From contig JAAYSP010000079.1 in the NCBI GenBank assembly GCA_012518355.1, positions 1 through 42,858 of the forward strand: DNA of 42,858 nucleotides, given 5' to 3'. Below, one piece after another: positions 3,244 to 38,015 of the stretch (positions are counted from its first letter, which is position 1; every line of letters starts with the position of its first letter). The DNA comes from a candidate division WS1 bacterium. GTDB lineage: Bacteria; Armatimonadota; Zipacnadia; Zipacnadales; UBA11051. A model generated the notes under the pieces. It saw only the letters and a program-made list of their open reading frames with translations. It searched no databases and was not told the origin of the DNA. The translations under genes were made by a program, and so were the position numbers.

Positions 3244-5553
3244 CTACATCGAACGAGATGCAAAAGCACACAGGTAGCCGTCGTTGCTGCCAACATACAC
3301 GCTTTGATCCGAGACTGCAGGCGAACTTTGCACTTCTCCACCTGTCTGATACTGCCACAGGCATACGCCAGTATGCGTATCAAGTGCATATAGGTTGCCA
3401 TCATGGCTTCCAACGTAAACGCTGCGCCCACTGACTGCAGGAGAAGAGTTCACCCAGTCACCCGCTTGAAAGTGCCACAGATGGTCACCGGTTGTTGCGT
3501 CTATTGCGTAGACGCGACCGTCTCGCGAACCTGTGTAGATGAACGATTGCCATGCTGCAGGCGACGACTCAAGTGGTCCTTGCGTCTGGAACTCCCACAC
3601 GCGCCTTCCGTGCAGTGTCTCCAGACAGTACAGACGATGGTCCGCAGAACAAACATACAGGCGGCCTTGATGAAACGACGGCGTCCCATAGATCTCCCCG
3701 CCGGTCATATACTGCCATAGCTCGCGTCCTGAAGATGCGTCAAGAGCGTAAAGGCGATGGTCCAGGCTGCCAACATAGACTTTACCTTGCCAGACCAATG
3801 GTGGTGAACATATGCCCAGATCGGCCTTAAATTGCCATATCTGCTGGCCACTCTTAGCACTTACAGCTACTAGATGGCCGTCATCAGTGCCGAAATAGAC
3901 CATATGTTGCCATGCTACGGGACTGGCACTGATGTGAGCCCGGACGTTGACCTGCCACAGTATGTCGCCCCTGATCGCATCCAATGCCAAAAGCCGATTG
4001 TGGACCGCAAAAAACGCTGTCTTCCCCCCCAGCACACAGCCGCTGTGCATCACTTCATGGTTGAACTCTTGCTCCCACAGTACATTGCCCGTAGTTGTAG
4101 CAAGCGCCGATATGCGTCCGGTATTCATCCCCATGTCAATTCCCGCACCGATGAACACCACGCCGTTGGCCACAACCGGAGAGGCGATAACCCAGTGCCC
4201 GATCTTCTTGCGCCAGCGTAAGCGCAACGGCGGCAATACTACCTCCGGAGTGTAACCCGTACGGGTGATATTGCCGCGAAACATCGGCCAGTTGTAGGCG
4301 CGCGTCGCCTTCTGCGAGCGCTGACGCACCAACGCCAGTGCAGCCTCATCCAGACTGCGTCGTGCTTTGGTATGCTCCGGATCTATTGCCAATACCTGAC
4401 GAAACAGTGCGATGGAACGGCGCAGGTCGCCTTCGTGTTGCCACTGTTGTGCACGCTTGAACAGTGTCTGGGCAGCCTCTGCTGTAGAGGTGTCTGCCCC
4501 CGCAGGAGCAGGATTGGCAGTGCTTTGCTGTTGGATGTCAGCTCGCTTCGCAGGCGGCGCAGTATCGGTCTGGCCATAAGACCGATACTTGACACGCTCC
4601 ATGGGCCCCACACAGATGGGACAGGAGCTATAGCGGCGCCAGGTCATATACTCACACTGGCTGCATCGCACTGCAGACTGTCCGGCCACCGCCTCCAGGA
4701 CCGAAGATTCTACGTCGGCGATGGCCTGCGACAGCTCTGAAAAACTCTGAAAGCGTTCAGCGCGATCTTTGGCCAGGCATCGCATGATCACTTCTTCCAA
4801 TGGTTCGGGGACATTCGGCACCAGTTGGCTGGGCTGCGGCGGTTCGTCACTGAGAATACTTCGGATCAGCACCCCCAGATTGGAGCCATGATGTGGCGGT
4901 TGTCCTGTGGTGGCGACATACATGACCACCCCGATGCTGTACAGGTCAGAAGTTCGGTCTGCTGAAGCAGCGTCAGTGAACTGCTCAGGAGGCATGTACA
5001 AGTATGTGCCCACACCCTGGCCGGTCTCGGTGAGATGCGTCACACCACCGCGCACCTTCGCAAGGCCAAAATCGCTGATCTTGATGTTGGCCTGCCGAGT
5101 CAGCATCAGATTTGATGGCTTCAAATCGCGATGCACTACACCGAGTTCGGTAGGCCCGATGGGCAGGTTGTGGATGTATTCCATACCGGCACATATCTGT
5201 TGGACGAATTTGAGCAGTTGCGGGGGAAATAGACGCTTCTCAGAGTCGAAAAGCTTCTGCAAGTCCGTGCCGGCGACGTAATCGAGAAACAGAAACGGCT
5301 GGTCATCCATCTCGCGATAGATGATGGCCTCAACAATGTTGGGGTGACGGCCGAGATTGAGCCAGGTTTTGGCCTCACGGGAAAAGCGCTTTACCGCTGC
5401 CCGATCCGCCAGCAGCTCTTCCTTAAGTGTTTTGACGGCAAATCGGCGCTGCGAAAACTCGTCAAGCACCACATAAACTACGCTCATGCCGCCCCGATGC
5501 TTCTCGATAACCTTGTACTGGTCGTCTATACTGTCGCGTAACTGGAACTCCAC
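3244..5553 (-). CDS. Ser/Thr protein kinase fused to zinc ribbon, TPR and PQQ-like beta-propeller
   Basis: A 769-residue protein from GTG 5553; AAGGGGGA lies just upstream and the kinase fold begins directly after it. Residues 8-275 form a Hanks-type kinase with glycine loop RGGMSVVY, catalytic-fold Lys near 41, HRDLKPSN with Asp near 143, DFG near 161, and MPPEQF in the activation segment. Residues 297-314 hold two Cys pairs (CSQC, CPIC), a zinc ribbon. A TPR-like pair follows at about 362-410, with FRQVLAIDPEH. From about 427 to the end are seven or so PQQ-type propeller blades, each with a GxVYVGSxDGxLYALD-like signature. No transmembrane helix is evident, so the propeller is probably cytoplasmic and may bind a ligand or substrate proteins. 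All kinase residues look intact. Substrates are unknown; the adjacent sugar transferase is one candidate. Confidence 0.9.
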   Translation of the reverse strand: MEFQLRDSIDDQYKVIEKHRGGMSVVYVVLDEFSQRRFAVKTLKEELLADRAAVKRFSREAKTWLNLGRHPNIVEAIIYREMDDQPFLFLDYVAGTDLQKLFDSEKRLFPPQLLKFVQQICAGMEYIHNLPIGPTELGVVHRDLKPSNLMLTRQANIKISDFGLAKVRGGVTHLTETGQGVGTYLYMPPEQFTDAASADRTSDLYSIGVVMYVATTGQPPHHGSNLGVLIRSILSDEPPQPSQLVPNVPEPLEEVIMRCLAKDRAERFQSFSELSQAIADVESSVLEAVAGQSAVRCSQCEYMTWRRYSSCPICVGPMERVKYRSYGQTDTAPPAKRADIQQQSTANPAPAGADTSTAEAAQTLFKRAQQWQHEGDLRRSIALFRQVLAIDPEHTKARRSLDEAALALVRQRSQKATRAYNWPMFRGNITRTGYTPEVVLPPLRLRWRKKIGHWVIASPVVANGVVFIGAGIDMGMNTGRISALATTTGNVLWEQEFNHEVMHSGCVLGGKTAFFAVHNRLLALDAIRGDILWQVNVRAHISASPVAWQHMVYFGTDDGHLVAVSAKSGQQIWQFKADLGICSPPLVWQGKVYVGSLDHRLYALDASSGRELWQYMTGGEIYGTPSFHQGRLYVCSADHRLYCLETLHGRRVWEFQTQGPLESSPAAWQSFIYTGSRDGRVYAIDATTGDHLWHFQAGDWVNSSPAVSGRSVYVGSHDGNLYALDTHTGVCLWQYQTGGEVQSSPAVSDQSVYVGSNDGYLCAFASRSM

Positions 5554-5921
5554 ACGCGATCCCCCTTGCCGCGACAGGTGCGAAGGCCGGGCTTTCCATG
5601 CCCGCACCTGGGCAAATCATGTGACGAAGCCATATTCGGCACTCGGTCACTATACTCCTGCCTGTCTGATCACGCTTGCCGACTTGCCACCTCAAAGCAG
5701 CAGAGAACCAGGCCGGTCCCTGCGCCTCAAAACGCAGCCTGCCGTAATCCTATCCCCCAATCACACGTAGTTCAAGCTCTCTCTATGGCAGTAGCTCAGA
5801 TTCTGGCCCAATTCGGCTCGCTTTGCCTCAAAGATAAGGATGCACTGTCTCAATTCTTTCGTCAACTATGCCAATCCCCATCCGCCGCAGTATGACATGT
5901 CGCGAACAGGAATGCCAGACC

Positions 5922-6062
5922 GACACTTGCGACACTTGCGACACTCTCGACACTCTCGACACTCTCGACACTCTCGACACTCGCAGGCACTCTCGACACT
6001 CTCGACACTCTCGACACTCTCGACACTCTCGACACTCGCAGGCACTCGCAGGCACTCGCAGG
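5922..6062. repeat. GACACTCTC minisatellite with AGGCACTCGC variant units
   Basis: Roughly fifteen head-to-tail units occur. Two GACACTTGC are followed by four GACACTCTC, then GACACTCGC-AGG and a partial unit, four more GACACTCTC, a GACACTCGC, and a closing run of 10-bp CACTCGCAGG variants. The unit is 9 bp, so every frame stays open. It lies between divergent functions in non-coding DNA, 5' of the kinase and 3' of the exported protein gene. Confidence 0.93.
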
Positions 6063-6708: not shown

Positions 6709-8499
6709 TCACTGAGGTCGGCTTCGCAAAGTCAGCAGTACTGGGTAGTGCGAACCCGATTGGGGTATGGTGAAGACCCGCACTGAATACCGATTTCCGG
6801 CCAGCACCGTTGCTCTATGGATCACTTTCTCTGATTGATTGTCGAGCATCGGTGTCTCAACCAATCGCCCCTCAATCCAGAATACCCCTCGGGCTATCCC
6901 CCCACGTGGGTGCATAACCAACTCTATCGCCGCAGATCGATCAGTCGGATTTTCGACAGTAGCGTTGATGCGGTGCAGCACACCATAGCTGCCCATCAAC
7001 GGATTTCCGGCAGTGCTCATGTCGGTATCTTTGCCCAGGCTGTAGAAGCACCAGCCATCTCCTACCGTGTGGAGCATGTCTACCAGCTTCTCACCATCGT
7101 ACGCAAAACCACTGGTGGGGCGATCAGCGTACATACTCCCCGGTGCCGCGGTGACAGATCTACGCGAAGTACCGGTGGTCTCCTCAGCCGTCACCTCTAC
7201 GATCAGCTCTCCATCGCCCAGTGGCACCATACGCTTGACTCCACTGGCCAACTCGCGAGGACGCAACCGGACTTCTGATATTTCGATACTGCTTCCTGCT
7301 GGTATAGGTAACACGTAGCCGATGCCCGAAAACAGATCAGACATAAATCTGGATGCCGCCACATGGCCCGCGAAAAGCTCATCCAGACTGGGACCTGCTC
7401 GCCCCTCGGTCAGGTGTAGCGGGATAGCCCTGTCGCCCAGGTTGTGAACTCGTACACTCAGATGCATCGGCGAAGAAGACGCGTTTACATGATGCCAGAG
7501 CAATCGAGCGCCCTGTCTTTGGCCCAGATGCTCACGTAGTAACACAGCCGACCCGGCAACCTTCTCGGGCACGTTGCTGACTAACAGCGTGTCAGCAGTC
7601 ATCTCTGGAGCAGCTATGCGTTGTATCTGCACCATATGAGTGCGCACAACCGGCAGGTAGGCGCCGCCCTCGGCCTTCACATTGACTTGATAGCCATCAG
7701 CAGATGTCACCGGCGTGCCGATAGCAAGCCAGGCCCCCGGCTCGAGGTTTGTGACGCTACGGACAAGACACTCCACCGCCTGCGGCAGTTGCTCCTTGCG
7801 CAACCGCGCACCAGATACCTGCAACTGTGAAGTCGGCGGTATACGTGCCGCCCATTTGCGACACAGCACTGAGATGACGCTGGAGCACTCACGGAGGCCA
7901 ACAGTCACTTGCGTATCGCCAGGCTGCAACGCCCACACCACCACACCTTTGCCGTCCTGCGAATCCTGCATGGTGACTACCGACTCATCAGCAACGCTGA
8001 TGCTGTCCGGACGTCCCGCGGTACCTCCCCACCTGATTGTGCGGCTTTCCCCCACCGGCACCAACACTTCCGGATACGGCGTGATCGTCAGATACGGGTC
8101 AGCCAGCACAGCTTTGACATTCGCCGCCCAACTCTGTGCCAGGCCTTCGGCGGAACTGTTGGCACTTTTGGCAAGGGCAGCATTCACTGTGACTACGGCC
8201 TGACCGGCTACGATAAGCTGTGCCTGTTGATCAGCCGCCTTCACGGTCACATCTGTTGGTCGTGCGCCACTCATGGCGGCTGTATTCATCTTCTGGGCAA
8301 TCGCCTGGGCTCTTGTCAACAGACCTTCGGCATTGCCACCGCGCAATCGCAGTATCACTTTTCCACGAGCAACCACCTGGGCACTGGTATTGTCCGCCCC
8401 TGCAAAAGCCTCAAACTGTAGCAGACAATTGCAAGTACCGACACCGGTGGAGACAAGCACCAGCACTGCCACCACTACTGCGGCACATCTGTTTCTCAT
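6709..8499 (-). CDS. Exported protein of unknown function with Ig-like segment
   Basis: A 596-residue protein from ATG 8499, with GGAG 8 nt upstream. The N-terminus is a signal peptide (Arg pair, hydrophobic stretch about 7-22). Residues ~145-210 contain VPVGESRTI...ISVADESVV...LQPGDTQVTVGL, the pattern of Ig-like BIG2/pilus-assembly N-terminal domains. The rest is beta-rich with no catalytic motif I recognise; a block with WHHVNASS, VHNLGDRAIP and GHVAASRF near 345-395 may be a conserved domain. It lies after a terminator at the end of the lpxD operon, so it either has its own promoter in a short gap or depends on read-through. Location is probably periplasm, outer-membrane inner face or surface. 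Function is not known. Confidence 0.75.
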   Translation of the reverse strand: MRNRCAAVVVAVLVLVSTGVGTCNCLLQFEAFAGADNTSAQVVARGKVILRLRGGNAEGLLTRAQAIAQKMNTAAMSGARPTDVTVKAADQQAQLIVAGQAVVTVNAALAKSANSSAEGLAQSWAANVKAVLADPYLTITPYPEVLVPVGESRTIRWGGTAGRPDSISVADESVVTMQDSQDGKGVVVWALQPGDTQVTVGLRECSSVISVLCRKWAARIPPTSQLQVSGARLRKEQLPQAVECLVRSVTNLEPGAWLAIGTPVTSADGYQVNVKAEGGAYLPVVRTHMVQIQRIAAPEMTADTLLVSNVPEKVAGSAVLLREHLGQRQGARLLWHHVNASSSPMHLSVRVHNLGDRAIPLHLTEGRAGPSLDELFAGHVAASRFMSDLFSGIGYVLPIPAGSSIEISEVRLRPRELASGVKRMVPLGDGELIVEVTAEETTGTSRRSVTAAPGSMYADRPTSGFAYDGEKLVDMLHTVGDGWCFYSLGKDTDMSTAGNPLMGSYGVLHRINATVENPTDRSAAIELVMHPRGGIARGVFWIEGRLVETPMLDNQSEKVIHRATVLAGNRYSVRVFTIPQSGSHYPVLLTLRSRPQ

Positions 8500-8533: not shown

Positions 8534-8572
8534 AAAAGTCTGGCGCCACTGCATTTGCGCGGACGCCAGACT
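8534..8572 (-). terminator. Intrinsic terminator after lpxD
   Basis: On the minus strand a perfect 9-bp stem (AGTCTGGCG/CGCCAGACT, 18-nt loop) is followed by TTTTG. It lies 34 bp past the lpxD stop and ends the bamA-skp-X-lpxD transcript before the exported protein gene. Confidence 0.8.
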
Positions 8573-8605: not shown

Positions 8606-9649
8606 TCAGCCGTCCTTGTCAAGCAGTTCTTCCAACTCCCGGACACGTCTTCGGAGATCTCTTATCTCGCGCAGCAAATCCGGTAGCCTGCGTACAGACG
8701 CCTCTGCCCGCATCGCGGAGCTGTGTTTGGTTGCAGGAAAGCCAGAGTAGATACCCGGCTCGGTGATATCTGATATCACGCCGCAACCTCCGCCCAGTGT
8801 TACGTTATCGCAAATCTTGATGTGATCGTTGATCCCGGCCTGCCCTCCCATGACGACATTGTCGCCTATGGCAGTGCTGCCCGCTATGCCCACCTGCCCG
8901 CACAGCAGACAGTTACGGCCGATGGTTACGTTGTGGGCTACATGAACTCCGTCGTCCATTTTAGTACCCTGGCCAATGCGGGTGGCGTTGATCGTGGCAC
9001 GGTCAATAGTAGTGTGTGCACCCACTTCTACGTCGTCTTCGATGATGACGGTGCCAATCTGGTGTATCTTCCTATGGCCTTCGGGAGTAGGCGCAAAGCC
9101 AAAGCCATCAGCACCAACGGCGGCACCTGCATGTATGATGCATCTGGCACCAATTATAACTCGCTCGCCGATATACACCTGTGGGTGAACCGCGGTGGCA
9201 TTGCCGATGACTGCCTCATGGCCGACGTAGGCAAGCGGGTGGATGATCACATCGTCGCCGAGGATAGTGTTCTCGCCGACAAAGGCATGTGCACCGATGC
9301 TCACGTTGCTTCCCAACACCACTCCGGCCTCCACCACCGCAGTGGGATGTATCCCCTCATAACACCTGGGCTTGGGCGCGAAGATCTCAAGCACACGGCT
9401 AAATGCCAGGCGAGGGTCTTCGGTGACAATCATCGGCTTGTGCCCAACGGTGGCGTTTGGCGGTACGATAAGGGCAGACGCACCGGAGGTCTCTGCCAGT
9501 GGTAGTAACTCGACCTTCTCGACAAAGGCAATCTGCCCGTTGCCAGCCTGATCCAGCGAGCCTACGCCTGTGATGGTGACATCTTCACCCTGGGCGCGCC
9601 CCTGGAGCATCTCAGCAAGCTGCGATAGTGGGTAGCTCTGTTCTGACAC
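8606..9649 (-). CDS. lpxD: UDP-3-O-(3-hydroxyacyl)glucosamine N-acyltransferase LpxD
   Basis: A 347-residue enzyme that adds the second acyl chain, from acyl-ACP, to UDP-3-O-acyl-glucosamine in lipid A synthesis. The N-terminal uridine-binding domain covers about 1-100 (LxQLAEML, IAFVEK, TEDPRLAFSRVLEIF). A left-handed beta-helix of hexapeptide repeats follows from 100 to 310, with the catalytic-type His in GVHVAHNVTIG near 234. The C-terminus is a coiled-coil helix (LPDLLREIRDLRRRVRELEELL). GTG 9649 is preceded by GGGAGG about 7 nt upstream. Length is standard. It is the last gene of the bamA-skp-X-lpxD series, as in proteobacteria but without fabZ and lpxA after it. Its presence indicates the cell makes a lipid A-type outer leaflet. 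Confidence 0.95.
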   Translation of the reverse strand: MSEQSYPLSQLAEMLQGRAQGEDVTITGVGSLDQAGNGQIAFVEKVELLPLAETSGASALIVPPNATVGHKPMIVTEDPRLAFSRVLEIFAPKPRCYEGIHPTAVVEAGVVLGSNVSIGAHAFVGENTILGDDVIIHPLAYVGHEAVIGNATAVHPQVYIGERVIIGARCIIHAGAAVGADGFGFAPTPEGHRKIHQIGTVIIEDDVEVGAHTTIDRATINATRIGQGTKMDDGVHVAHNVTIGRNCLLCGQVGIAGSTAIGDNVVMGGQAGINDHIKICDNVTLGGGCGVISDITEPGIYSGFPATKHSSAMRAEASVRRLPDLLREIRDLRRRVRELEELLDKDG

Positions 9650-9673
9650 TCGAGAACCTCCCGCAAATCCTGT

Positions 9674-10846
9674 TTACGACTGCCACATTCTGCGCAATTG
9701 TGGTCTTAGTTGCTCTGTGACATCCGGCCCCGCTGTCGGCTGGGTCGGCGGTACAGTCAGGCGAGTGCCGGCTTCCAAAGCGCTCTTGCGCACCGCTAAC
9801 ACCGTCTCGTCATATATGCGACGGCTTAGCCTCGACTTCTGCACTGAGAGCATAGCAGCCAGACGGTTGCCGGCGGAAGCATAGACTGCTTCTACATCCG
9901 TACCACCGGGCTCATATTCGTGCGTCAAGACGTCAACCGCACTCGATTGATGCACCAGCACACGGCCGCTGTAGTCAGGGACCTCCCAATTGCTTAGGAG
10001 TTTAGACAAACGATCTGCAGTTTTGCTTCCGGAACTTACCGAACTATGCAATCTTTTCTGCATTTTTTGCCAAACTTGCTGCTGTGCCGTGTCAAAAGCA
10101 AGCTGTGCCTCCTGCCGCATCCGAGCTTCGTACTCGTCAAGCAGACGTTGCGAAGCATCCGCCTGTTCTGCCATTTGCGCTTCGATCCTCGCCAGAATCC
10201 GCTCGCGTTCGGAGGGTGCCGCGTCAGTGCTCTCGCCACGGCGCCGGACCATCAGGTCCGCATTCATCAGCGCTTCTTGATATTTGCGGACCAGGTCGGC
10301 TTCCTTGCGGCTCAATTCAAGCTGTTCGGCGTATCGGGTGGCCTGCAATTTCTGTTCAAGATCGCCCCTTAGTTGCTGCTCAATCCATCCAAGCCTGGCC
10401 CTCAGATCTGGCGCCAATTCACTTGGCGATGCCGCGAAAGCATTGGTGCGACTCTGCCGCCACAGTGTCACATAATCATCGTAGGTCACACTATCGAAAC
10501 CCGGTGGCTGTGGGCCGATGAGCACCAGGGTGCTATCGGGGCGCGGTCCCCAGTGCCATCTCCGCTCCCAGCGGTGGACAGTCAGGCTACTGAAGCGGGC
10601 AATTTCGGCATCCAAACGCATCAATTGCGGGTACAGAGGGTGCTCGGACATTAGCCGTGCCGGATAGGCATGACATGTTTCGCCGAGAGCCCCCCATGTC
10701 AAATCACTGGATTTGATGGGCGCATCGGTGTCAGATCTTGACGCCGGAGCGAAAGTTGTCTGCGATATGACTATTGCGCCGACCAGCATTACTGCGACAA
10801 GGGTGGCGATCTGCCAGGCAGCGATACGACTAGCCCTGGCTCTCAT
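9674..10846 (-). CDS. Membrane-anchored or exported coiled-coil protein of unknown function between skp and lpxD
   Basis: About 390 residues from ATG 10846, which lies 7 nt past the skp stop; an upstream in-frame start at 10885 would overlap skp by 32 nt. A signal anchor is seen at about 9-29 (AAWQIATLVAVMLVGAIVIS). The middle third is highly charged and Gln/Arg/Glu-rich with heptad character (QQLRGDLEQKLQATRYAEQL through EARMRQEAQLAFDTAQQQ), a long coiled coil. The C-terminal part has VLTHEY and an Ala/Arg helix. No enzyme motif is visible. Its spacing of 24 nt to lpxD and its place after skp suggest a role in outer-membrane protein or lipid delivery, perhaps an elongated Skp-like holdase. 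This is inference; I do not recognise the family. Confidence 0.78.
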   Translation of the reverse strand: MRARASRIAAWQIATLVAVMLVGAIVISQTTFAPASRSDTDAPIKSSDLTWGALGETCHAYPARLMSEHPLYPQLMRLDAEIARFSSLTVHRWERRWHWGPRPDSTLVLIGPQPPGFDSVTYDDYVTLWRQSRTNAFAASPSELAPDLRARLGWIEQQLRGDLEQKLQATRYAEQLELSRKEADLVRKYQEALMNADLMVRRRGESTDAAPSERERILARIEAQMAEQADASQRLLDEYEARMRQEAQLAFDTAQQQVWQKMQKRLHSSVSSGSKTADRLSKLLSNWEVPDYSGRVLVHQSSAVDVLTHEYEPGGTDVEAVYASAGNRLAAMLSVQKSRLSRRIYDETVLAVRKSALEAGTRLTVPPTQPTAGPDVTEQLRPQLRRMWQS

Positions 10847-10853
10847 GACGCTA

Positions 10854-11555
10854 TCACTGCTCCGGCGGGGTGTTGAGTTTCTCAAGCACCACTGCAGTCA
10901 AATCGGTTACATGTTCGCTGCAGTAAAATACCATGCCTCGGTCCACCACCAGGTCGTATTTGTCGGCCTGGGCGACCTCGGTGATGATCTCCCGCACGCT
11001 GGTGACAAGTGACACCTGGGTCTCTGAGCGCTTCTCCAGGTACTCCCGCTCAATGGCGGTGGCACGCATAGTGATATCGGCATGGCGCGCCTCGTATGTG
11101 TCTGAGAGACTGTTGAACTCATCGCCCTCAGCGGGTGTGCGGCCCGTATTGGCTTGCAGGTCCATGAACCGCTTTTCTTTCTGCTCTGACACCTGCCGCA
11201 GCTCTTCCTCACGGCTGGTCTGCGCGTCGGTCCACTTATCACGCGAGATCTGAAGCAGCTCTGCGATTTCCGCAAAGTTCTGTTCACTCAAAAATAGGTA
11301 GTTGCGCAACTGGTCAATGTAACGCGTACGCGTCTGAGCCCAGGTGCGCAGTTGCTCCTGTTGCGCAATCAGTTCCTGATATTGCTCACTGATTATGTCC
11401 AGGTCCACAACGCCTACCTTGAGGATCGGTGATGCGGTTGTGGCCCCAGCCTCAGCTTGTGTTTCGGCCTCCTGAGCCACGATCATCCCGACCGACAGCA
11501 ACAGCAGACTCACCGCTACAGCAACAGTGGCTATCCACCTACTGCGTGTATTCAT
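10854..11555 (-). CDS. OmpH/Skp family periplasmic chaperone
   Basis: A 233-residue protein from ATG 11555, chosen because a classic signal peptide begins there (MNTRSRW, hydrophobic 10-25, VAQEAE cleavage region). The mature part starts ILKVGVVDLDIISEQY, the typical Skp first strand (KIGVVDxxxI), followed by a long coiled coil with QEQLRTWAQ and REEELRQVSEQKEKRF. It ends with a YDLVVDRGMVFYCSEHVTDLT-type strand pair, the usual Skp C-terminal cap. Skp trimers hold unfolded outer-membrane proteins in the periplasm for BamA. It lies downstream of bamA (275-bp gap) and is followed at 7 nt by the coiled-coil gene. The mature length, longer than proteobacterial Skp, is common outside proteobacteria. 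Confidence 0.88.
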   Translation of the reverse strand: MNTRSRWIATVAVAVSLLLLSVGMIVAQEAETQAEAGATTASPILKVGVVDLDIISEQYQELIAQQEQLRTWAQTRTRYIDQLRNYLFLSEQNFAEIAELLQISRDKWTDAQTSREEELRQVSEQKEKRFMDLQANTGRTPAEGDEFNSLSDTYEARHADITMRATAIEREYLEKRSETQVSLVTSVREIITEVAQADKYDLVVDRGMVFYCSEHVTDLTAVVLEKLNTPPEQ

Positions 11556-11829
11556 TTTGGTGTCAACCGACTCCTTTCGCACATCTCTACGGGCCACTTT
11601 GCGGCAGTCGCGTCTGGCAATGTGCACTCCGGACATACAGCTCGTCCAGAGGCGATTTAAGCGATAGAGTCTAAAAGAGGCACCAAGCAGCACCAGGAGT
11701 CACCGATAGTACCATGAATTATCCATGCTGGCCACATGACTGGACGGTCTGCGCCCATCTCCTGGAGTCGTCATGGGAAAACACAATCCTGTTGCCCAGG
11801 CACGCTTGTTCAGTGGACCATCAGGCGGC

Positions 11830-13737
11830 TCAAAACATGTGGCCGAAGCTGAAGTGAGCCTGGCTTCCGTCCTCACCATATCCGAAATCGAGCCGGATCG
11901 GCCCTATCGGCGTCTCCACCCGAAGACCCACTCCTGCACCTACGTGCGGGTCCAGACTGCTGTCTTCGGCCGGTATGCTGAAACCTGGTATGACTGTCGG
12001 GAACTTGCCATCGAATGAACTGCCCACATCCACGAAACCGACTGCCCACAGCTTGTCACTGATGGCCCGTCGATACTCGACGTTCAGGAGTGCCATTTTC
12101 TCTCCGCGAAAGCGGTCCTCGCGATAGCCTCGAAGAGTGTTGCTGCCGCCCACTGAAAACGATTCAAACAGTGGTAGATCTCCAAACGCCGCTCCTAGCA
12201 TCAGACGTGCAGCTAGAATCTGTTTCGGCGAGCCCAGAGTGCGGTACATGCGTCGTTCGGCGGTGAGCTTCTGGAACTGCACTTCTCCACCGACGAGCTT
12301 GTGGGCCAGCTCAAGGCTTATGTCAGTATAGCCACCAGACGTCGGATTTGCCAGCAAGTCACGGCTGTCCATGGTACGGCCGAGTGTGATGCTGGCCAGT
12401 CTTCCTCCGGGATGCAACGGAGCGGCTACAAGTATGGGGCCGAGCATGTCGCCAGGTCCCGGGGTATCGCTTATGCTGCCGGGGTCGTAGTTGCCCCCCG
12501 AAGCGCCGTCGCCACTGAGCCCATCTCCTGTCCGGTGGTCGCCGGGCAAGTTGCCTCCGACGCCGGGTATGCTTCCTTCACCGATGAGCCGAGTGCCCTG
12601 CAGAAAGCTGCTCGAGACCTTCTCACTGCGGAAGCCGAAAGTCATACGCGACTGGCTGCCAGTTGGTCTCGACAGGGACATGTTGACACCGGTGCGACGC
12701 TCATCAAACACGTCCTCAGAGGTAGTAACTGCCGCACCTCCGACGAATCGTCGGCTCCTCTCTGTGTCGAAAAGGCGGATAGAGAAGGAGCTGCCCTTAC
12801 TGTCCACATACGGTTTGAAATACTTGGTCTCGTAGCTGGTGCGGCCGAACAACTCGACGTCCACAGAGGCACGCTCACCTTTTCCGCGAAAATTGTTCTC
12901 TGCCAGAGACAATACCAGCACGAATTTGTCAAGATTGCTGTAACCGGCGGCCACCGAGAATTGCCCGGTGCGTTTTTCCTCGACCTGCAATGCGACGATG
13001 ACGCCCCGTTCAGGATCTTTCACGCCAGGGCGGATATCTGAACTCACGTTTTCGAACATGCCCAGGTTATAGATGCGGCGAATCTGTTCAACAATTTTCT
13101 GTTCCTGAAACAGCTCTCCGGCCTGCAGTTCCAGCTCGCGGCTGACTACCTCGTCCTTGGTGCGTATCAAGCCTTCGATGAGTACTTCTTCAATCCGTGC
13201 CTCAGTTATGACGAATGTGACTACCCCAAACTGGGATACCTGAACATCAGTGACCTCGGCCAGATAGCCCTTCTGACTGTAGTAGTCAGCAATACGGCCC
13301 ACATCACGCCGAATCGCCGCATCATCAATCACGTGCCCCTCGCGTATGAACATAGATTCCCGCAGCTCGGCATCCGTGATTACAGTGTTGCCCACCAGCT
13401 CCACTCTGGTGATCCGCTTTTTTTCCACTACGGTGATTACCACGGCCACACCCGTATCTGCATCCTGGGCATCAACTGCCACTGTGTCAAAGTACCCCAT
13501 CCGCATGAGCTTGCGCTGAGCTTCTTCGCGAGCGCGTGCGGTAAAGGGTGCCCCGATCTTGAGCACATCCGACACCTCCGCGATGATCGCCTCCGCAGAG
13601 ATATAGTCGTTGCCTTCGACGCGCAGTGCGGCGATGAGCGGCTCTTCTTGGGCCCATACAACGTGGGATGATGCCATGGCACACAATACAGGGACGATCG
13701 CCGCCAACAGGGCAATACGTGTTCGGCTATCGTTCAT
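11830..13737 (-). CDS. bamA: Outer membrane protein assembly factor BamA
   Basis: A 635-residue Omp85 protein that inserts beta-barrel proteins into the outer membrane. A signal peptide is at 1-30 (cleavage near VVWAQEE). Three POTRA domains lie at about 32-106, 108-181 and 182-255, each with the G-N/I and GYF-type turns, against five in proteobacteria. The barrel runs from about 258 to the terminal Phe. The lid motif is LRGYREDRFRGE near 548-559. Residues 386-433 form an unusual Gly/Asp/Pro-rich low-complexity stretch inside the barrel region, probably a long surface loop. AAGAGGTG precedes ATG 13737. It follows the ECF sigma gene by 86 bp on the same strand, placing outer-membrane assembly under that regulator's likely operon. 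Confidence 0.94.
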   Translation of the reverse strand: MNDSRTRIALLAAIVPVLCAMASSHVVWAQEEPLIAALRVEGNDYISAEAIIAEVSDVLKIGAPFTARAREEAQRKLMRMGYFDTVAVDAQDADTGVAVVITVVEKKRITRVELVGNTVITDAELRESMFIREGHVIDDAAIRRDVGRIADYYSQKGYLAEVTDVQVSQFGVVTFVITEARIEEVLIEGLIRTKDEVVSRELELQAGELFQEQKIVEQIRRIYNLGMFENVSSDIRPGVKDPERGVIVALQVEEKRTGQFSVAAGYSNLDKFVLVLSLAENNFRGKGERASVDVELFGRTSYETKYFKPYVDSKGSSFSIRLFDTERSRRFVGGAAVTTSEDVFDERRTGVNMSLSRPTGSQSRMTFGFRSEKVSSSFLQGTRLIGEGSIPGVGGNLPGDHRTGDGLSGDGASGGNYDPGSISDTPGPGDMLGPILVAAPLHPGGRLASITLGRTMDSRDLLANPTSGGYTDISLELAHKLVGGEVQFQKLTAERRMYRTLGSPKQILAARLMLGAAFGDLPLFESFSVGGSNTLRGYREDRFRGEKMALLNVEYRRAISDKLWAVGFVDVGSSFDGKFPTVIPGFSIPAEDSSLDPHVGAGVGLRVETPIGPIRLDFGYGEDGSQAHFSFGHMF

Positions 13738-13823
13738 GTTTACACCTCTTCTTGGGCAAACAGGCCGTGGCGCTAATGTATTGGTTTGCCGGCCTCAACC
13801 GGTGGAACGAAATCCGCCGGCGC

Positions 13824-14387
13824 TCAAGGCTCTTCGTTTAGATACTCTTCCAGACGCTCACGTAACACCGATCGTGCTCGAAACAGCCTGGACTTGACCG
13901 CTTCCAGGCTGCAACCAAGTATATCAGCCATCTCGTTGTAGGAAAAGCCCTGATAGTCGCGGAGAATGATGACCTCACGGTAATCATGGCGCAATCGCTC
14001 CACGGAACGGGCCAACACCTGCGCCAACTCACGATTTTCAGCAAGCCGTTCCGGCGCCAAAGTCTCATCAATAACATCAACGTAAATCTCAGAATCGTCT
14101 CCGGTGTCTAGCGGCGCATCGAGTGACACGACCTCGGTTCGGTTGATACGGCGTTGACGTTCCAGTCGGTTCTTGGTCAGGTTGATTGCGATTCGGTACA
14201 GCCAGGTATAGACCTGTGAGTCGCCGCGGAAACTATCCCAGGCCCGATAGGCATTCACAAAGGTATCCTGGGTCAAATCCGCGGCCTCTTCAGCGTCGCT
14301 GGTCAGGCGATAGACAACATTGTACACGCGCTCATAGTTGTCCGCGATGATTCGCTTGAATTCTTGCTGCTTTTGGTGGTCTGCCAC
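13824..14387 (-). CDS. ECF-type RNA polymerase sigma factor (RpoE/SigW-like)
   Basis: A 187-residue sigma factor with region 2 at about 12-80 (VYRLTSDAEEAADLTQDTF, then TWLYRIAINL) and region 4 at about 128-180 (VIILRDYQGFSYNEMADIL, a helix-turn-helix ending AVKSRLFRAR). Region 3 is absent, which defines the ECF group. GTG 14387 has GAAGG about 6 nt upstream. An ECF-type promoter lies 64-90 bp upstream (14451-14477), suggesting autoregulation. It heads the bamA-skp-X-lpxD series, so it probably controls outer-membrane assembly like proteobacterial sigma-E. No anti-sigma gene is adjacent; the double-zinc-finger gene at 38016 shares the same promoter motif and is a candidate partner. Family call is firm; regulon is inferred. 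Confidence 0.95.
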   Translation of the reverse strand: MADHQKQQEFKRIIADNYERVYNVVYRLTSDAEEAADLTQDTFVNAYRAWDSFRGDSQVYTWLYRIAINLTKNRLERQRRINRTEVVSLDAPLDTGDDSEIYVDVIDETLAPERLAENRELAQVLARSVERLRHDYREVIILRDYQGFSYNEMADILGCSLEAVKSRLFRARSVLRERLEEYLNEEP

Positions 14388-14450
14388 TCAGCCTTCACGC
14401 CTGATAGATTCCGTCCCACCGGAGCCAGGCGGGAGCGCGAGTTATGGACT

Positions 14451-14477
14451 TAGACACGAACCGGGCATGTCGGTTGC
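14451..14477 (-). promoter_or_regulatory. ECF-type promoter of the sigma gene (AAC-N14-CGTGTCTA)
   Basis: On the minus strand AAC (14475-14473) and CGTGTCTA (14458-14451) are separated by 14 nt. This matches the usual ECF layout of an AAC-containing -35 and a CGTC/TCTA-like -10. The same arrangement with identical spacing precedes the zinc-finger gene at 38016. The predicted leader before GTG 14387 is about 57 nt. Confidence 0.6.
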
Positions 14478-14508: not shown

Positions 14509-17500
14509 TTAGAAGCTCCAGACGCGTTCCAACTGTACCCGGTTGCGGTTTGTCTCATCGGTATTGTACGATACCCGCCAGTCTCTTCCTACCTCGTATG
14601 CCACAGTGAGGTCGTATCTATCGCCTCCGGTGCCTATCGTGGTGTGATAGGTTACTAGCAGGTCTTCAAGCAGATACTTGCCCAACTGCAACTCCACCGG
14701 CTGGTTGAAAGCAAAATGCAGGCTGAATTCTGAAAGTCCTAGCAGGCGACGCAACTCCTGCTCCAACGGCTCAAAAATGGCAACCCGGAAGCCCGCTGCC
14801 AGAGCTCCCAGGAATTGCTCAGAGACGATGTTTTCCAGCTCTAGAGCTCCACCGGCGCCCTCTCCAGTGAAATATGAGAACGGCTGTGACCCCAGTAGGG
14901 CATAGATCTGCGCTTCCTGCAGAGGCGGATGGGAAGATACGTCCACCCGCAGTTGGTCCGGCAGGTTGCCACTGAGCTTCATGTCTATCATGACAGTACC
15001 GATGTCACGGCCGTAGACCACCGCAGACCGCACCGCTGTCTCGGCTTCGCCCAGGATGTTGCCAGTCAATTCGAGGGACACAGGATCACGCCTGATGGCT
15101 TCCGGTTTGCGAGCCAGCCTGTACTGCGCTCTCATGGTCTTAATAGTAGCCATACCTCCGGATACCTGTGTCCGTCCTCGCTGTGCCTCTACGACGCCTT
15201 CGATTACCGGCATCTGCAGGGTGCCTTGAACATGCGCGGCTCTGGCTGTCGGCTGTATCGGAGCGACAATACCGGGGCCCACCAGTTGCATGTCAGGCCC
15301 CAGAGCCAGGCGGACATCGAGGCGCGGCTTGGGGTAACTACTGCCTGGTGCGTGCAATTCCCCCTGCCCACCGCCACCGGCCGGTAAGCCCAGACGTCCG
15401 TGGCTCAGAGTATAGGCACCAGCTATCTGTGCAGGCGTCCCATCTCCTGCGCCAGTGACATCAACTCTGCCTTCCAGCACGCCTTCGACCAGGCCTCGCA
15501 ACGCCATCTCCGCACGATCTGCCACCAGTGTGATATCCATCGCGTTGTCTGCCAGATTCGCGAAGCGAAAATCGGCCATCTGAGCAGTGCCATCCACTGT
15601 GAAGTGGCCCTTGCCAAACTTGCCCCCGACCTGCTCGATGGTCAACTCCGGTGCGTGCAGTCCTCCACCCTTGAGTGTGGCCTTGCCGCCGACCTCCCAG
15701 GCGGTCAGCCCCCGAGCCAGTTGCTGCTGATCTGCATCCAGGGTCAGGGTCAGGTCATACTGGTTCTCCGCCATCCTGGCAGGCGCTGTCTGGGTAATCG
15801 TAGCGTTCCCGGCCAGACCAAGCTTCAAATCCTCCCAGTTAGCATCTGCTTGCTTGATGAAGATACTGTTGCCCTGTTCCTGCCCGTGCAACTCCAAATC
15901 GAGAGCGATATTTTTGAGCATGCTTGTGCGCTCACCGATAGCCACTGATCCATCCTGGACCTGCAGAAATCCGTACAGCTCCGGTTTGGCAGGGGTGCCG
16001 GTCATGCGCAGGGTGCTGTCCACAGAGCCTGCCAGCGACAGTCTGGTCCAGATGTCTGATGCATCCACACCGTCCCGCCGTGCCTCATACTGTGCGAACT
16101 CGTCCATCAGGACCGGAAACAAGGCGACTTCGGTGTCTTCGATGCGCGCTTCAAGCTTCATGGGCTGGTCAGCGACGATACCCACCGGCTCCCAAGAAAA
16201 CGGCAGCGTCCCATCTATGACCATCTCTTCTCCGGTACGGGAGGACGACAGTTGGTGCCCCCCTGCGAGCGTCTGCTGGGAATCAGATGTCTCCTGGGGC
16301 TCAGAGGCCTCCTGGCGCTCGTAACTTCGCCGCAGGGTGAGAGTGTCAACAGCCAACGTACCCTCTTCAATCGATATGATCGGGGCACTGAGTACGTCGA
16401 ACGAAACGCCAGCCAGCTGCGGATTGAGCACGTCCACACTGGCCATGATCTGTGGTTTGCGAGTGCTCCCACCGGCCATGACTGTGAAACCAAGCTCACC
16501 GCCCATAGCCGAGCGGAAGGGCGTCCATCGATCATAGCGGGCCATGTCCATACCCGAACCGACGACAAGGACGTTCATCTCGCCATCATAGCGCAGATCG
16601 CCCTCAGCGGTGATCAGCGCATCACCCTGAGTAGCCTCCATCGCGATGTCGTAAAGCCCTTCTCTGTCGCCGGTCGCAGTCGTCCTCACATCAGGCAGGG
16701 GCACTCTGTCGAACACCGCATCATGCAACTGCACCTGCGCCCTGCCCACAGGGTTGTCCGCACCACCTTCGATGTGGATTTCACCCGACAGGCGGCCATC
16801 CAGCCGCAAAGACATCGCATCCACAGTCCGAAGCAGTGACTCGCGGCGTTCCGCATCCTGTTCAGAATTCACTGCGGCTGCCACTGGCCTGGCCAGGTTC
16901 AGGAGGCGAGAAACGCTGGTGCCAGTGAGGATGGCATCAGCGTACATCTGGCGAGTGTCAATGTCATACTCGCCGACTGCACCGACCTCGCCATCTGCCA
17001 ACTGGCACTGCATGCCCAACAGCTTCACCAACTGTTTTGATAGCGCCAGCTCAGCCTGCAGACCCTCCACCGGCTGCCCGCCGATGACTATCCTGTCGCT
17101 GACTAACCGCGCCTGGCCGCTCAGGTTGTCAAGTGGCCCGACTACCCAGGCCACAGGCATCTGCACCAAACCACCCACATCCAGCCCCATATCCTGCAAC
17201 TGATAGATGCCCTCGAGATAGATGTCGGCTGCCGACAGACTCGCTGTCAGTGCAGGTTCATCGCGCAGATCAACACTGGCCTGCGCATGCAATTCCGAGC
17301 CCTGCACCTGAAATACTGCGTCATCTACAGAGATGACTAGCCCGGACAACTCAAACGGTATGCGACCCTCACTGATGTCAAGGCTGGTGGTCATCGCATG
17401 CGCAATCTGCACCTGACCGGTTGCTATCGGGTCGGCAAGTGTGCCACCAAACACGCCCTGTATTTCCGCCAGTCCGTCAAGGCTATCCACATCACGGCCT

Positions 17501-19899
17501 AGCATTTCGACGACGTCCGCGAGCTGAATTCCGGCACCATCAAAACGCCCGGCTATACGCGCGTCGGCATACTGCTTGCTTTTGCGCAGATCCTCCAGGC
17601 CCTCAAGCGAGCCGCTGGCAGAGATCGCAGCACTACCGCGACTGGCGAGCATCTGTGTGACGTGCACATCCTGCAGGTCGGTGGTCAACTCTGCGCTCAG
17701 TGCATCCAACTGATATCGCTGATAGCGCGGCTCGAAAACCGTAGCTTCGGCATGTATGCTGGGATTGGTGGGCGTACCGGACACCTGTCCCTGGATATAG
17801 AGTACACCGCCGGCCTGCTCTATGTCGAATTGCTCCAGCACGCTGTCCAGGTGCGCTTCCGCCACCTGGAAGTCTGCCGAAAGCTCGCTATCTGACGGCT
17901 GTTGCACCGAGCCCAGACTTCCCGTGGCCCAGACCGTGCCCATGGGCGATACGGCAAACGCAACAGGCACTTCCAGCCGTTCGCCTTCCAGTGTGAGCAG
18001 CGCTCCAGCACCTGAGGCTTCATACTGCTGGTAGGCGAGTTCGTTGCCGCGCACACTGGCCGCAGAGCTAAGCTGCCCGTCGTGGTAACTGACCACAAAG
18101 TCGGCATCCAGCAGCCCCCGGGGCGGCGCATGGAACCCAAGGCGGGCAATCGGCAGGCCCGACAGCTCCACATCACGGAGCGTGCCGTCGGCATATATCG
18201 CAGGAGTATCACCCGACAGGTCAACTACTGCCTCACCGGCCAGCCGCCCATCAAGCACATCTGCCTGCAAGTCACGCAAACGCAGAGCAGTGCCGACCAG
18301 TGTTGCCTCTGTGCGAATGTCACTGAGCTCCACATCCCAGAGACGCACTCCATCCAGCGCCAGGCGGCTGTGCGCCTGTGGCGCCCCGTCTATCACCGCC
18401 GCCTCCACTGTCAGGGCATCAAGTGGCGCAGCCGACATGAGATCGGACTCTGCTAAGTGCGCGTTCTCGACCACCAGACTGCCGGACACCTCCGGCATTC
18501 CGGCATACCACTGCAATTGTGCAGTCACACTGTGCAAAGCTGATACAGTCAAGTGCTCCGGCCAGCTGTCATCATCAGGAGCGGCCAACGGAATTGGCCC
18601 GGGATGGACCGTCTCCATGTCCGCTCTACCAACCAGCACCGGTTCGGACAGGTCTACCAGCGCCACGCTCAGGTCGAGCCCGTCGGCCGAAATACTCAGC
18701 TCTTCAGTCGGTTCGGACGTCACCGTTCCTGACGTACCAAGCCGAAGGTCAATCGCGGCATGCTGTGGCGGCCCGATCACCCGAGCCTGCACACTGACCG
18801 GCCCCTGCACGGAAAAGGGTGGCAGTTCGGACCGGGTCTTCGCAGGCAGTGCTTGCAGTACCCTGCCTACATCCACCGCCGATGCCTGCAGTTCCAGGTC
18901 AAGGCTGGGCTGGTCGAAATCTACTACGCTACCGGTCACCAGCATGCTCTGGCCGTTCCAGGCCAGTCGCATTGCGTCAGTGATCACACCCTGTGGTGTG
19001 ACGATTAGCTCTCCGTCCATCTGCACCGGGCCTGCCGGCAGACTGGGCACAGCCACCGTAGTGGGATCCAGCTTCGCCTTGATGCTGTAACCAGTGTCCG
19101 TGGCGTTTTCAGTCGGCACACGGTAGAGCGCCCCCTCCACTTGTGCTCTGCCATTCATGACCGACACGGGAGAGTTCGGCGACAGGCGATGCTGGGCCCA
19201 AGCCAGGTCCAGGTCAGCTAGCTGCAAATCGAAGCTGAAGCCTCCGTGGATTGTGTCTACTACACCCTCAGCTATCAGGCTGGAAAAGTCACCGCTGTCA
19301 CCGGTGGCCGACAGGTCCACTCGGATCAGCCCAACACGGCGCATGTCTACATGCCCGGACAGATCCTCCAGCTCCAGATGCAGTGGAGTGGGGCCAAATT
19401 CGTTGCTGTGATCGGTGTAGTGCAGGTGAGCGTCAGACAGCCACACTTCGCCTTGAAACTGATCTTCCGGGGGGACGGGCGCCTTCGGTGGAGGGAGGAG
19501 CTGCTGCAGGTTGAGCCGCCCATCGGCATCGCGAACCAGATCAACTTCGAGGCCTTCTATGCGCACCTGGCGGACTGCTGCAGCCGGAGTGCTGCGACGA
19601 CGCACGATTGCAAGCAAATCGTAGGATACTCGGAGACGTCGCGCGGTGACCAGCGCTCCTTCGCTGAAGTTCTCGCCGGCCGCCACAGCTAAGCCGTCCA
19701 CCTGGACGCCGGTGAGCAGATTGCCGGTAAGAGGGCCTACTCGCACCTCACGTCCTGTCAGGTCAGCCAGATATCGGGCAACCATTTCCTGGCTTCGATG
19801 CTGCACCCACGCACTTCGGTTGACTACCATATAGCAGATAGTCAGTAGCCCTGCCAGAGGCAGAATCATGATGCCCAGGGTCAGAAATAGCCGTCGCAT
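14509..19899 (-). CDS. TamB/AsmA-like translocation and assembly module protein (DUF490)
   Basis: A 1796-residue protein from ATG 19899, where MRRLFLTLGIMILPLAGLLT gives an N-terminal membrane anchor; longer in-frame starts run into the lipA end. The body is a very long repetitive beta structure of alternating VxGxL/ADG/LxG strands, the lipid-groove fold of TamB/AsmA/VPS13-like bridges. The C-terminal DUF490 domain (about the last 350 residues) includes DQLRVDVSSHPPL, YALLGSQPFSYF and FSLHFAFNQPVELQLGKYLL, and ends with an aromatic VWSF. Such proteins span the periplasm and carry phospholipids to, or help assemble proteins in, the outer membrane. It sits 43 bp after lipA and 121 bp before the ECF sigma gene on the same strand. 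Proteobacterial TamB is about 1250 residues; this one is longer. Family call is strong. Confidence 0.92.
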   Translation of the reverse strand: MRRLFLTLGIMILPLAGLLTICYMVVNRSAWVQHRSQEMVARYLADLTGREVRVGPLTGNLLTGVQVDGLAVAAGENFSEGALVTARRLRVSYDLLAIVRRRSTPAAAVRQVRIEGLEVDLVRDADGRLNLQQLLPPPKAPVPPEDQFQGEVWLSDAHLHYTDHSNEFGPTPLHLELEDLSGHVDMRRVGLIRVDLSATGDSGDFSSLIAEGVVDTIHGGFSFDLQLADLDLAWAQHRLSPNSPVSVMNGRAQVEGALYRVPTENATDTGYSIKAKLDPTTVAVPSLPAGPVQMDGELIVTPQGVITDAMRLAWNGQSMLVTGSVVDFDQPSLDLELQASAVDVGRVLQALPAKTRSELPPFSVQGPVSVQARVIGPPQHAAIDLRLGTSGTVTSEPTEELSISADGLDLSVALVDLSEPVLVGRADMETVHPGPIPLAAPDDDSWPEHLTVSALHSVTAQLQWYAGMPEVSGSLVVENAHLAESDLMSAAPLDALTVEAAVIDGAPQAHSRLALDGVRLWDVELSDIRTEATLVGTALRLRDLQADVLDGRLAGEAVVDLSGDTPAIYADGTLRDVELSGLPIARLGFHAPPRGLLDADFVVSYHDGQLSSAASVRGNELAYQQYEASGAGALLTLEGERLEVPVAFAVSPMGTVWATGSLGSVQQPSDSELSADFQVAEAHLDSVLEQFDIEQAGGVLYIQGQVSGTPTNPSIHAEATVFEPRYQRYQLDALSAELTTDLQDVHVTQMLASRGSAAISASGSLEGLEDLRKSKQYADARIAGRFDGAGIQLADVVEMLGRDVDSLDGLAEIQGVFGGTLADPIATGQVQIAHAMTTSLDISEGRIPFELSGLVISVDDAVFQVQGSELHAQASVDLRDEPALTASLSAADIYLEGIYQLQDMGLDVGGLVQMPVAWVVGPLDNLSGQARLVSDRIVIGGQPVEGLQAELALSKQLVKLLGMQCQLADGEVGAVGEYDIDTRQMYADAILTGTSVSRLLNLARPVAAAVNSEQDAERRESLLRTVDAMSLRLDGRLSGEIHIEGGADNPVGRAQVQLHDAVFDRVPLPDVRTTATGDREGLYDIAMEATQGDALITAEGDLRYDGEMNVLVVGSGMDMARYDRWTPFRSAMGGELGFTVMAGGSTRKPQIMASVDVLNPQLAGVSFDVLSAPIISIEEGTLAVDTLTLRRSYERQEASEPQETSDSQQTLAGGHQLSSSRTGEEMVIDGTLPFSWEPVGIVADQPMKLEARIEDTEVALFPVLMDEFAQYEARRDGVDASDIWTRLSLAGSVDSTLRMTGTPAKPELYGFLQVQDGSVAIGERTSMLKNIALDLELHGQEQGNSIFIKQADANWEDLKLGLAGNATITQTAPARMAENQYDLTLTLDADQQQLARGLTAWEVGGKATLKGGGLHAPELTIEQVGGKFGKGHFTVDGTAQMADFRFANLADNAMDITLVADRAEMALRGLVEGVLEGRVDVTGAGDGTPAQIAGAYTLSHGRLGLPAGGGGQGELHAPGSSYPKPRLDVRLALGPDMQLVGPGIVAPIQPTARAAHVQGTLQMPVIEGVVEAQRGRTQVSGGMATIKTMRAQYRLARKPEAIRRDPVSLELTGNILGEAETAVRSAVVYGRDIGTVMIDMKLSGNLPDQLRVDVSSHPPLQEAQIYALLGSQPFSYFTGEGAGGALELENIVSEQFLGALAAGFRVAIFEPLEQELRRLLGLSEFSLHFAFNQPVELQLGKYLLEDLLVTYHTTIGTGGDRYDLTVAYEVGRDWRVSYNTDETNRNRVQLERVWSF

Positions 19900-19942
19900 A
19901 GCACCTGAGAGACCGCTCACCGGCTCGGTTCTGTTATGTGTC

Positions 19943-20884
19943 TTAATCCCGCCGGGATGTTCGTGCCGCCTTGGCCAGGATATCTGCGCGGTAGCTGCTG
20001 CGGACAAATGGCCCTGCGGCGACATGCCGTATACCTGCACCAACGGCCCACTCGGCATACCGGTCGAAAAGGTCGGGATGCACATATCGGGCGACGGGCA
20101 GGTGACGACGAGTGGGCTGCAAATACTGACCGATGGTCACGATGTCGCAGCCGCCCTGCGCCAGGTCGTCGAGTAGCGTTCGGACTTGCTCATCGGTTTC
20201 GCCGACGCCCACCATGAAACCAGACTTGATCACTATGCCTGAATCGTTCCCTGCAGCAGCAGCCAACACCTGCAAAGACCGATCATAGTCGGCCTCCGGA
20301 CGGAGCAATGGCGACACTTCACGGACTGTCTCGACATTGTGGTTGAACACCGTCGGCCCGGCATCCAGTACCACCTGCAAAGCCGACATATCACCCTGGA
20401 AATCTGGGGTCAGCACTTCTATACCCGCCTGTGGAAGCGTCTGGCGCACGGCATCTATGGTGGCTGCAAAATGCGCGGCCCCACCATCTGGGAGGTCGTC
20501 ACGAGTAACTGAGGTGACTACCACAAAGTGCAGGCCCAGGTGTGCGGCAGTGGCGGCCACTCGTTGAGGTTCGTCAGGGTCAAGAGGGTCCAGTGTGTCC
20601 GACGGGCGCGCATGGCGTACTGCGCAAAAGCGGCAGTGACGGGTGCAAACCTCCCCCATCAGCATGAAAGTGGCTGTCTGCCGCGAGAAACACTCGCCTA
20701 TGTTGGGGCAACGTGCGCTCTCGCACACAGTGCACACGCCATGGTTGCGCAACAGTGTACGTGTTTGTTGGCCCTGAGAATCCTTGCCTATCTTGACGCG
20801 CAGCCAGTCCGGCAGTCTGTGGGGATCTTGCGACACTTGTCTTCGCACCCTTCTGGATATATTCCGGCGATGACAGTCACACAT
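19943..20884 (-). CDS. lipA: Lipoyl synthase LipA
   Basis: A radical-SAM enzyme that inserts two sulfurs into octanoyl groups on lipoyl-carrier proteins. Seen are the auxiliary cluster motif CESARCPNIGEC (C-X4-C-X5-C), the radical-SAM motif CTRHCRFC (CX3CX2C), HNVETV, SGFMVGVGET, and the C-terminal GPFVRSSY, whose serine binds the auxiliary cluster. All catalytic residues are present. The start is uncertain. ATG 20884 gives 313 residues and leaves a perfect hairpin (20891-20910) in the leader. A GTG at 20929 would put the hairpin in the coding part, and GTG codons at 20848 and 20836 are also possible. No start has a clean ribosome site. It lies between the response regulator and tamB on the same strand. 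Confidence 0.93.
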   Translation of the reverse strand: MCDCHRRNISRRVRRQVSQDPHRLPDWLRVKIGKDSQGQQTRTLLRNHGVCTVCESARCPNIGECFSRQTATFMLMGEVCTRHCRFCAVRHARPSDTLDPLDPDEPQRVAATAAHLGLHFVVVTSVTRDDLPDGGAAHFAATIDAVRQTLPQAGIEVLTPDFQGDMSALQVVLDAGPTVFNHNVETVREVSPLLRPEADYDRSLQVLAAAAGNDSGIVIKSGFMVGVGETDEQVRTLLDDLAQGGCDIVTIGQYLQPTRRHLPVARYVHPDLFDRYAEWAVGAGIRHVAAGPFVRSSYRADILAKAARTSRRD

Positions 20885-37877: not shown

Positions 37878-37904
37878 GAAACTTTTTCCCTCTGAACGTG
37901 TCTA
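37878..37904 (+). promoter_or_regulatory. ECF-type promoter upstream of the double-zinc-finger gene (AAC-N14-CGTGTCTA)
   Basis: GAAAC (AAC at 37880-37882) and CGTGTCTA (37897-37904) are separated by 14 nt. The eight-base -10 element and the spacing are identical to those in front of the ECF sigma gene at 14451-14477. It lies 18 bp after the ftsA stop and about 110 bp before the zinc-finger gene, so the latter has its own predicted start. Confidence 0.6.
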
Positions 37905-38015
37905 CTAAAGTGAAGATACTCACTTCGGCACAAGCTACACCACCACTTCACTGCCACGTGCTGAAAGAACCGTCACAACCGCTGCTTGCGGCTGACGAAT
38001 AGTGGCTGAACTGCG

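Follow-up and report, generated by a model that had tools for sequence, protein, structure and literature searches.

The window analysed here is an entire contig of 42,858 nt from a candidate division WS1 bacterium, belonging to a 3.09-Mb metagenome-assembled genome (MAG) of the Armatimonadota that is 93.7% complete and lies near Candidatus Zipacnadia. On its minus strand, lipA, tamB, an extracytoplasmic function (ECF) sigma factor gene, bamA, skp, a gene termed X and lpxD follow one another and are closed by a hairpin. A first-pass annotation had described the part from the sigma gene to lpxD as a single-strand operon ended by an intrinsic terminator. Its order, strand, gene identities and coordinates hold, and the terminator-like hairpin is real by its folding energy and U-run. 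As a description of the operon it was incomplete: it missed tamB, the lack of an anti-sigma gene next to the sigma gene, and a box-bearing orphan anti-sigma candidate elsewhere in the same window. The features of the locus are as follows.

14509-20085, minus strand: tamB-like gene, 1858 aa (Pfam TamB, E 3.4e-17), upstream neighbour of the sigma gene
14450-14477, minus strand: ECF-type box GCAACC-N15-TGTCTAA between tamB and the sigma gene, 62 nt upstream of the start of the latter
13824-14387, minus strand: ECF sigma gene, 187 aa, GTG start (Pfam Sigma70_r2 and Sigma70_r4_2)
11830-13737, minus strand: bamA, 635 aa, three POTRA domains and Omp85
10854-11555, minus strand: skp/OmpH-like periplasmic chaperone gene, ATG start (Pfam OmpH, E 5.9e-13)
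9674-10846, minus strand: gene X, exported coiled-coil protein, alternative start TTG at 10885
8606-9649, minus strand: lpxD (NCBIfam lipid_A_lpxD, E 3.1e-102, above cut-off)
8534-8572, minus strand: intrinsic-terminator-like hairpin with U-run (fold -30.4 kcal/mol, z -5.06, followed by UUUU)

On the minus strand, tamB ends only 121 bp before the sigma gene, which is therefore flanked by tamB and bamA. Sigma and bamA are separated by 86 bp containing neither a terminator-like site nor a sigma-70-like promoter; an independent promoter and terminator at this point, named by the first-pass annotation as what could refute its operon, were looked for and not found. The bamA-skp gap measures 274 bp from the ATG of skp, for which an upstream GTG at 11693 is an alternative start, and includes one weak terminator-like site (fold z -1.10).

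The sigma factor has the ECF architecture, with sigma2 and sigma4 domains only (Pfam). Among proteins of solved structure it is closest to 6in7 (E 7.2e-32), deposited as a sigma-H factor and taken by us to be AlgU, and to sigma-E of E. coli (1or7, E 3.8e-30). When aligned, the sequences are nearly identical over stretches of region 2 (AYRAWDSFRGDSQVYTWLYRIAIN versus AYRALDSFRGDSAFYTWLYRIAVN) and of the recognition helix (VKSRLFRAR versus VRSRIFRAR). In a quick tree of 53 operon sigmas (after dropping rows with fewer than 141 residues or at least 8 X) and 25 paralogs (counted after dropping rows with fewer than 131 residues), the operon sigmas form a cluster separate from most paralogs. Exceptions are few: L298, labelled as a paralog, is an operon copy located at a contig end, and L290 and L291 are extra copies in family f11.

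The box at 14477-14450 had been proposed as the promoter of the sigma gene, and it is kept in relatives far above chance. The pattern AAC-N16/17-TGTC[TA] occurs in 22 of 38 sigma upstream regions, compared to a mean of 0.33 and a maximum of 4 in shuffles of dinucleotide blocks, and a strict form occurs in 16 of the 38 and in no shuffle. (Mononucleotide shuffles were used for the first box search, for the motif search outside the class and for the zinc-gene test described below.) The -10 part presumably resembles sigma-E promoters. The -35 part resembles the E. coli RpoE element GGAACTT (PMC8103513). A predicted promoter with a GGAAC-type -35 lies on the sigma's own operon and on outer-membrane assembly genes. 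The sigma-E-type feedback loop suggested by the first-pass annotation gains support at the level of sequence, from a sigma resembling sigma-E and a conserved ECF-type box directly upstream of it.

The first-pass annotation had also named loss of the gene order in relatives as a refuting outcome, and the order proved to be conserved. Conservation of the sigma-bamA adjacency was assessed by searching both genes in the same 61 genomes, with 40 regions read in gene order. The sigma gene stands directly before bamA in 52 of the 54 relatives for which the DNA upstream of bamA is assembled, a count made by eye from the sigma and bamA listings and the gene-order table, and tamB is directly upstream of the sigma gene in most of them. 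The other two (G047, G056) have tamB-bamA without a sigma gene; the seven genomes outside the 54 have contig breaks (G004, G014, G046) or no bamA match (G033, G035, G038, G044). A second, named set came from scanning a genome collection with a BamA alignment (78 loci, its Armatimonadota relatives being chiefly Candidatus Zipacnadia and candidate division WS1). Here, the sigma gene precedes bamA in 34 loci, including Chthonomonas calidirosea, Capsulimonas and Fimbriimonadales; one other Armatimonadetes locus (L159) and two from Abditibacteriota have no sigma gene there, and contig ends truncate the Armatimonadota loci L133 and L150. The remaining 39 loci are mostly Gastranaerophilales and other non-Armatimonadota, and 38 of them lack a sigma gene before bamA; because this outside sample is narrow, restriction to the phylum cannot be taken from these counts.

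The thirty-ninth, L203, was rejected as an example of sigma-bamA from outside the phylum, its sigma being of a different sigma-70 type. In the locus itself (L203:2853-10693, Clostridia bacterium DTU084), tamB is followed by a sigma-70-family gene that is not an ECF, then by a gene for a possible membrane protein of no recognised family and then by bamA, a similar insertion of a sigma between tamB and bamA in another phylum. Other variants were seen among the relatives. Three tandem bamA paralogs lie behind the sigma gene in L058:8815-15042 (G045), the sigma-bamA pair occurs twice in one MAG (G040, contigs C191 and C244) through duplication or strain mixture, and 1.7 kb with an unidentified open reading frame of ~350 aa is inserted between tamB and the sigma gene in L053:6820-8513 (G018).

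The adjacency could be positional only, with bamA expressed mainly together with tamB or from a housekeeping promoter while the sigma serves another regulon. tamB does lie upstream on the strand of sigma-bamA, the two genomes with tamB-bamA dispense with the sigma, and TGnTATAAT is found between the end of tamB and the start of the sigma gene in 6 of the 38 relatives, four of them (L044, L053, L074, L075) also having the box. However, the order is kept across the phylum, no terminator separates sigma from bamA, the box occupies the gap before the pair, and relatives also have boxes before skp. We therefore hold a purely positional adjacency to be very improbable.

The genome encodes five other ECF sigma factors, each adjoining a zinc-type anti-sigma-like gene, three of which are above the Pfam zf-HC2 cut-off. 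The bamA-linked sigma has no neighbouring anti-sigma gene and is the sole such case among the ECFs of its genome. RseA was considered as a partner and rejected, since RseA_N (PF03872) is above cut-off in 0 of the 61 genomes while the E. coli control was found. The genome also encodes a peptidase M50, from which nothing specific follows. Among the zf-HC2 genes of this genome above the Pfam cut-off, only one has no adjoining ECF gene, and it lies in the same window, 24 kb from the sigma gene, after ftsQ-ftsA and before an M28 peptidase gene:

37878-37905, plus strand: ECF-type box GAAACT-N15-TGTCTAC, after ftsA and before the tandem-zinc gene
38016-39437, plus strand: orphan anti-sigma candidate (tandem-zinc gene), 473 aa, two Pfam zf-HC2 domains, one hydrophobic segment and a long Pro-rich tail

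The motif HxxxCxxC is invariant in both zinc domains in all 24 aligned rows (H29, C33, C36; H105, C109, C112). A profile of the protein matches seven PDB sequences, of which five are named anti-sigma factors (RsiW, DdvA, ChrR twice, and RsrA). The other two are a CHAT-domain protein and 3hug, a 'probable conserved membrane protein' that we take to be an anti-sigma factor. With its HxxxCxxC motif and zinc-binding anti-sigma (ZAS) domain the product qualifies by sequence as a ZAS protein; ZAS proteins are also expected beside their ECF sigma, and here the neighbours are ftsA and the M28 peptidase gene.

A pattern derived from the sigma promoters matched 37880-37904 before the tandem-zinc gene was studied. 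Because this pattern matched many other places too, conservation is what counts. Of the 30 loci that score best among 54 genomes with matches, 24 have a box before the tandem-zinc gene, compared to a mean of 0.31 and a maximum of 3 in shuffles. In seven genomes of the same family, SVAACYN15TGTCTAW has 17 matches genome-wide, 12 of them before the sigma operon (7/7 genomes) or the zinc gene (5/7), with 9 for the reversed-pattern control. Across 41 genomes, GAAACYN15TGTCTAW has 37 matches (control, 11), of which 26 precede the zinc gene and two fall, by coordinates, just after bamA with skp next (G025, G031); since this pattern was derived from the 30-locus test, its counts test specificity and are not independent.

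The box might instead be read by a different ECF, or by some other outside regulator of the sigma-bamA operon, given that each genome has several ECFs and that ECF -35 sequences are alike. Against this, the box is by far commonest before the bamA-linked sigma and its candidate anti-sigma, and none of the upstream regions of the five paralogous ECFs in the genome has a TGTCTA-type box with this spacing. We give an outside reader of the box a slim chance.

The partnership between the two orphans is open to a more serious challenge. The sigma may drive its own operon while the ftsA-linked gene partners another ECF or none, control of the sigma then resting on its amount or on some unrecognised regulator. 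The -35 parts differ systematically, GAAAC at the anti-sigma candidate versus GCAAC/GGAAC at the sigma gene. The base preceding AAC is thus A at the former and G or C at the latter, so another ECF could read the anti-sigma-gene box. Moreover, the sigma is phylum-wide and the zinc gene is linked to ftsA inside the class only: a phylum-wide place behind ftsA was rejected, as outside the class no zinc-motif gene was found in the available stretch after ftsA, with ftsZ next in several genomes. Two genomes (G054, G059) have the sigma and no match to the tandem-zinc gene. On the other side, orphan sigma and orphan anti-sigma pair off one to one in their own genome, spacing and TGTCTA are identical at the two boxes, two of the five paralogous ECFs have a different box, ending GCGTCTAT, and TGAAAC does occur in sigma boxes of some other classes (L068, L070, L073). 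On balance we consider it unlikely that the two genes are not partners.

These differences in base, class and genome also count against the split circuit that we favour, as do several further points. The box patterns were partly chosen after examples had been inspected. Of the 38 sigma upstream regions, 16 have no box; most of those beyond the class of the window lack it, and a search there for a common motif gave nothing clearly above shuffles. Family f2 carries the box before skp and not before sigma. The sigma misses the NCBIfam RpoE equivalog cut-off (139.4 versus 236.15 bits), though this model is top among those listed. Finally, two of the five anti-sigma genes next to paralogous ECFs match only weakly (NCBIfam).

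Taken together, we regard it as probable, on sequence grounds, that the window encodes a sigma-E-like outer-membrane stress circuit in which the regulator sits inside its target operon and a co-regulated tandem-domain anti-sigma has been split off into the cell-division cluster. More specifically, the sigma gene would be the first gene of a sigma-bamA-skp-X-lpxD transcription unit and drive it from the box at 14477-14450. As the sigma would thereby drive its own unit, each round of activation is proposed to raise the sigma together with the BAM insertase BamA, the Skp chaperone and the lipid A enzyme LpxD. In place of an adjacent rseA-type gene, the two-zinc-domain membrane protein encoded 24 kb away behind ftsA would hold the sigma, and the box at 37878-37905 would put its gene under the same sigma and so complete a negative feedback loop. 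The sigma would be released when the periplasmic tail of the tandem-zinc protein senses envelope damage. We lean, by less, towards the wider hypothesis that such a split sigma-E circuit exists throughout this Armatimonadota class, with the sigma locked into a tamB-bamA operon, the two-domain anti-sigma in the cell-division cluster, and one stress switch common to outer-membrane assembly and division.

Beyond the sigma operon and the zinc gene, the repeated targets of the box in the 41-genome scan are skp (family f2), LmeA-like genes (family f3) and prfB. In the window's own genome AACYN15/16TGTCTAA occurs four times, before the sigma gene, prfB, a secretin gene and an exported coiled-coil gene, as often as its reversed-pattern control. 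The box precedes prfB, which encodes release factor 2, in L090, L091, L100, L106, L110, L114, L120 and L126, and lies between secA and prfB in L111 and L112, two genus relatives. An exported 5'-nucleotidase-C-domain gene then follows prfB in several loci.

Within the operon, gene X belongs to no family according to Pfam and NCBIfam profile searches. Its alignment shows a lipobox-like LxGC in several relatives, and the idea that it is a second Skp is unsupported (hhalign probability 16%). Elsewhere, the window encodes a Ser/Thr kinase fused to a PQQ/BamB-like propeller (3244-5607) and a pilus-N-domain protein whose gene comes after lpxD in many relatives (6709-8499); between the two lies a tandem array of the 9-bp unit CGACACTCT (5921-6057). 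A 135-bp direct repeat in two copies, 88% matching, is found at 1365-1634.

If true, the link between a sigma-E-type regulator and BAM would not be limited to Proteobacteria, and in a distant, little-studied diderm phylum the regulator would be encoded inside its main target. A split sigma/anti-sigma pair could then be matched through shared promoter boxes, and the identity of the signal and the anti-sigma that control Armatimonadota outer-membrane biogenesis becomes a directly testable question.

The kind of system is known, since sigma-E control of bam genes and skp (PMC6737893), an RpoE binding site between lpxD and fabZ (a table entry in PMC5493296) and the possibility of orphan anti-sigmas are already in the literature. 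The wiring, with the sigma inside its target operon and a split-off anti-sigma, appears to be new: no report of it was found in the literature searched, the coverage of which leaves out most subscription papers. An anti-sigma survey looked no further than 10 genes from each ECF and names orphan anti-sigmas as possible (PMC7406223); a partner at a distance of 24 kb would probably escape a search of that range.

Compared to known systems, the WS1 sigma shares its sequence type with E. coli RpoE of the RpoE-RseA pair, as the 1or7 match indicates. Unlike RpoE, it lies inside the bamA operon and has no rseA, rseB or rseC neighbour; unlike RseA, the candidate anti-sigma is a two-domain protein of the zinc type, encoded in the division and cell wall (dcw) cluster. 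The AlgU-MucA system of Pseudomonas provides the best solved sequence relative of the sigma, if 6in7 is AlgU as we assume, and differs from the WS1 system in gene context and anti-sigma type. The tandem-zinc protein is like the zinc anti-sigmas RsiW, ChrR and RsrA in its profile matches, its HxxxCxxC motif and its single hydrophobic segment, and unlike them it has two anti-sigma domains and no adjoining ECF gene.

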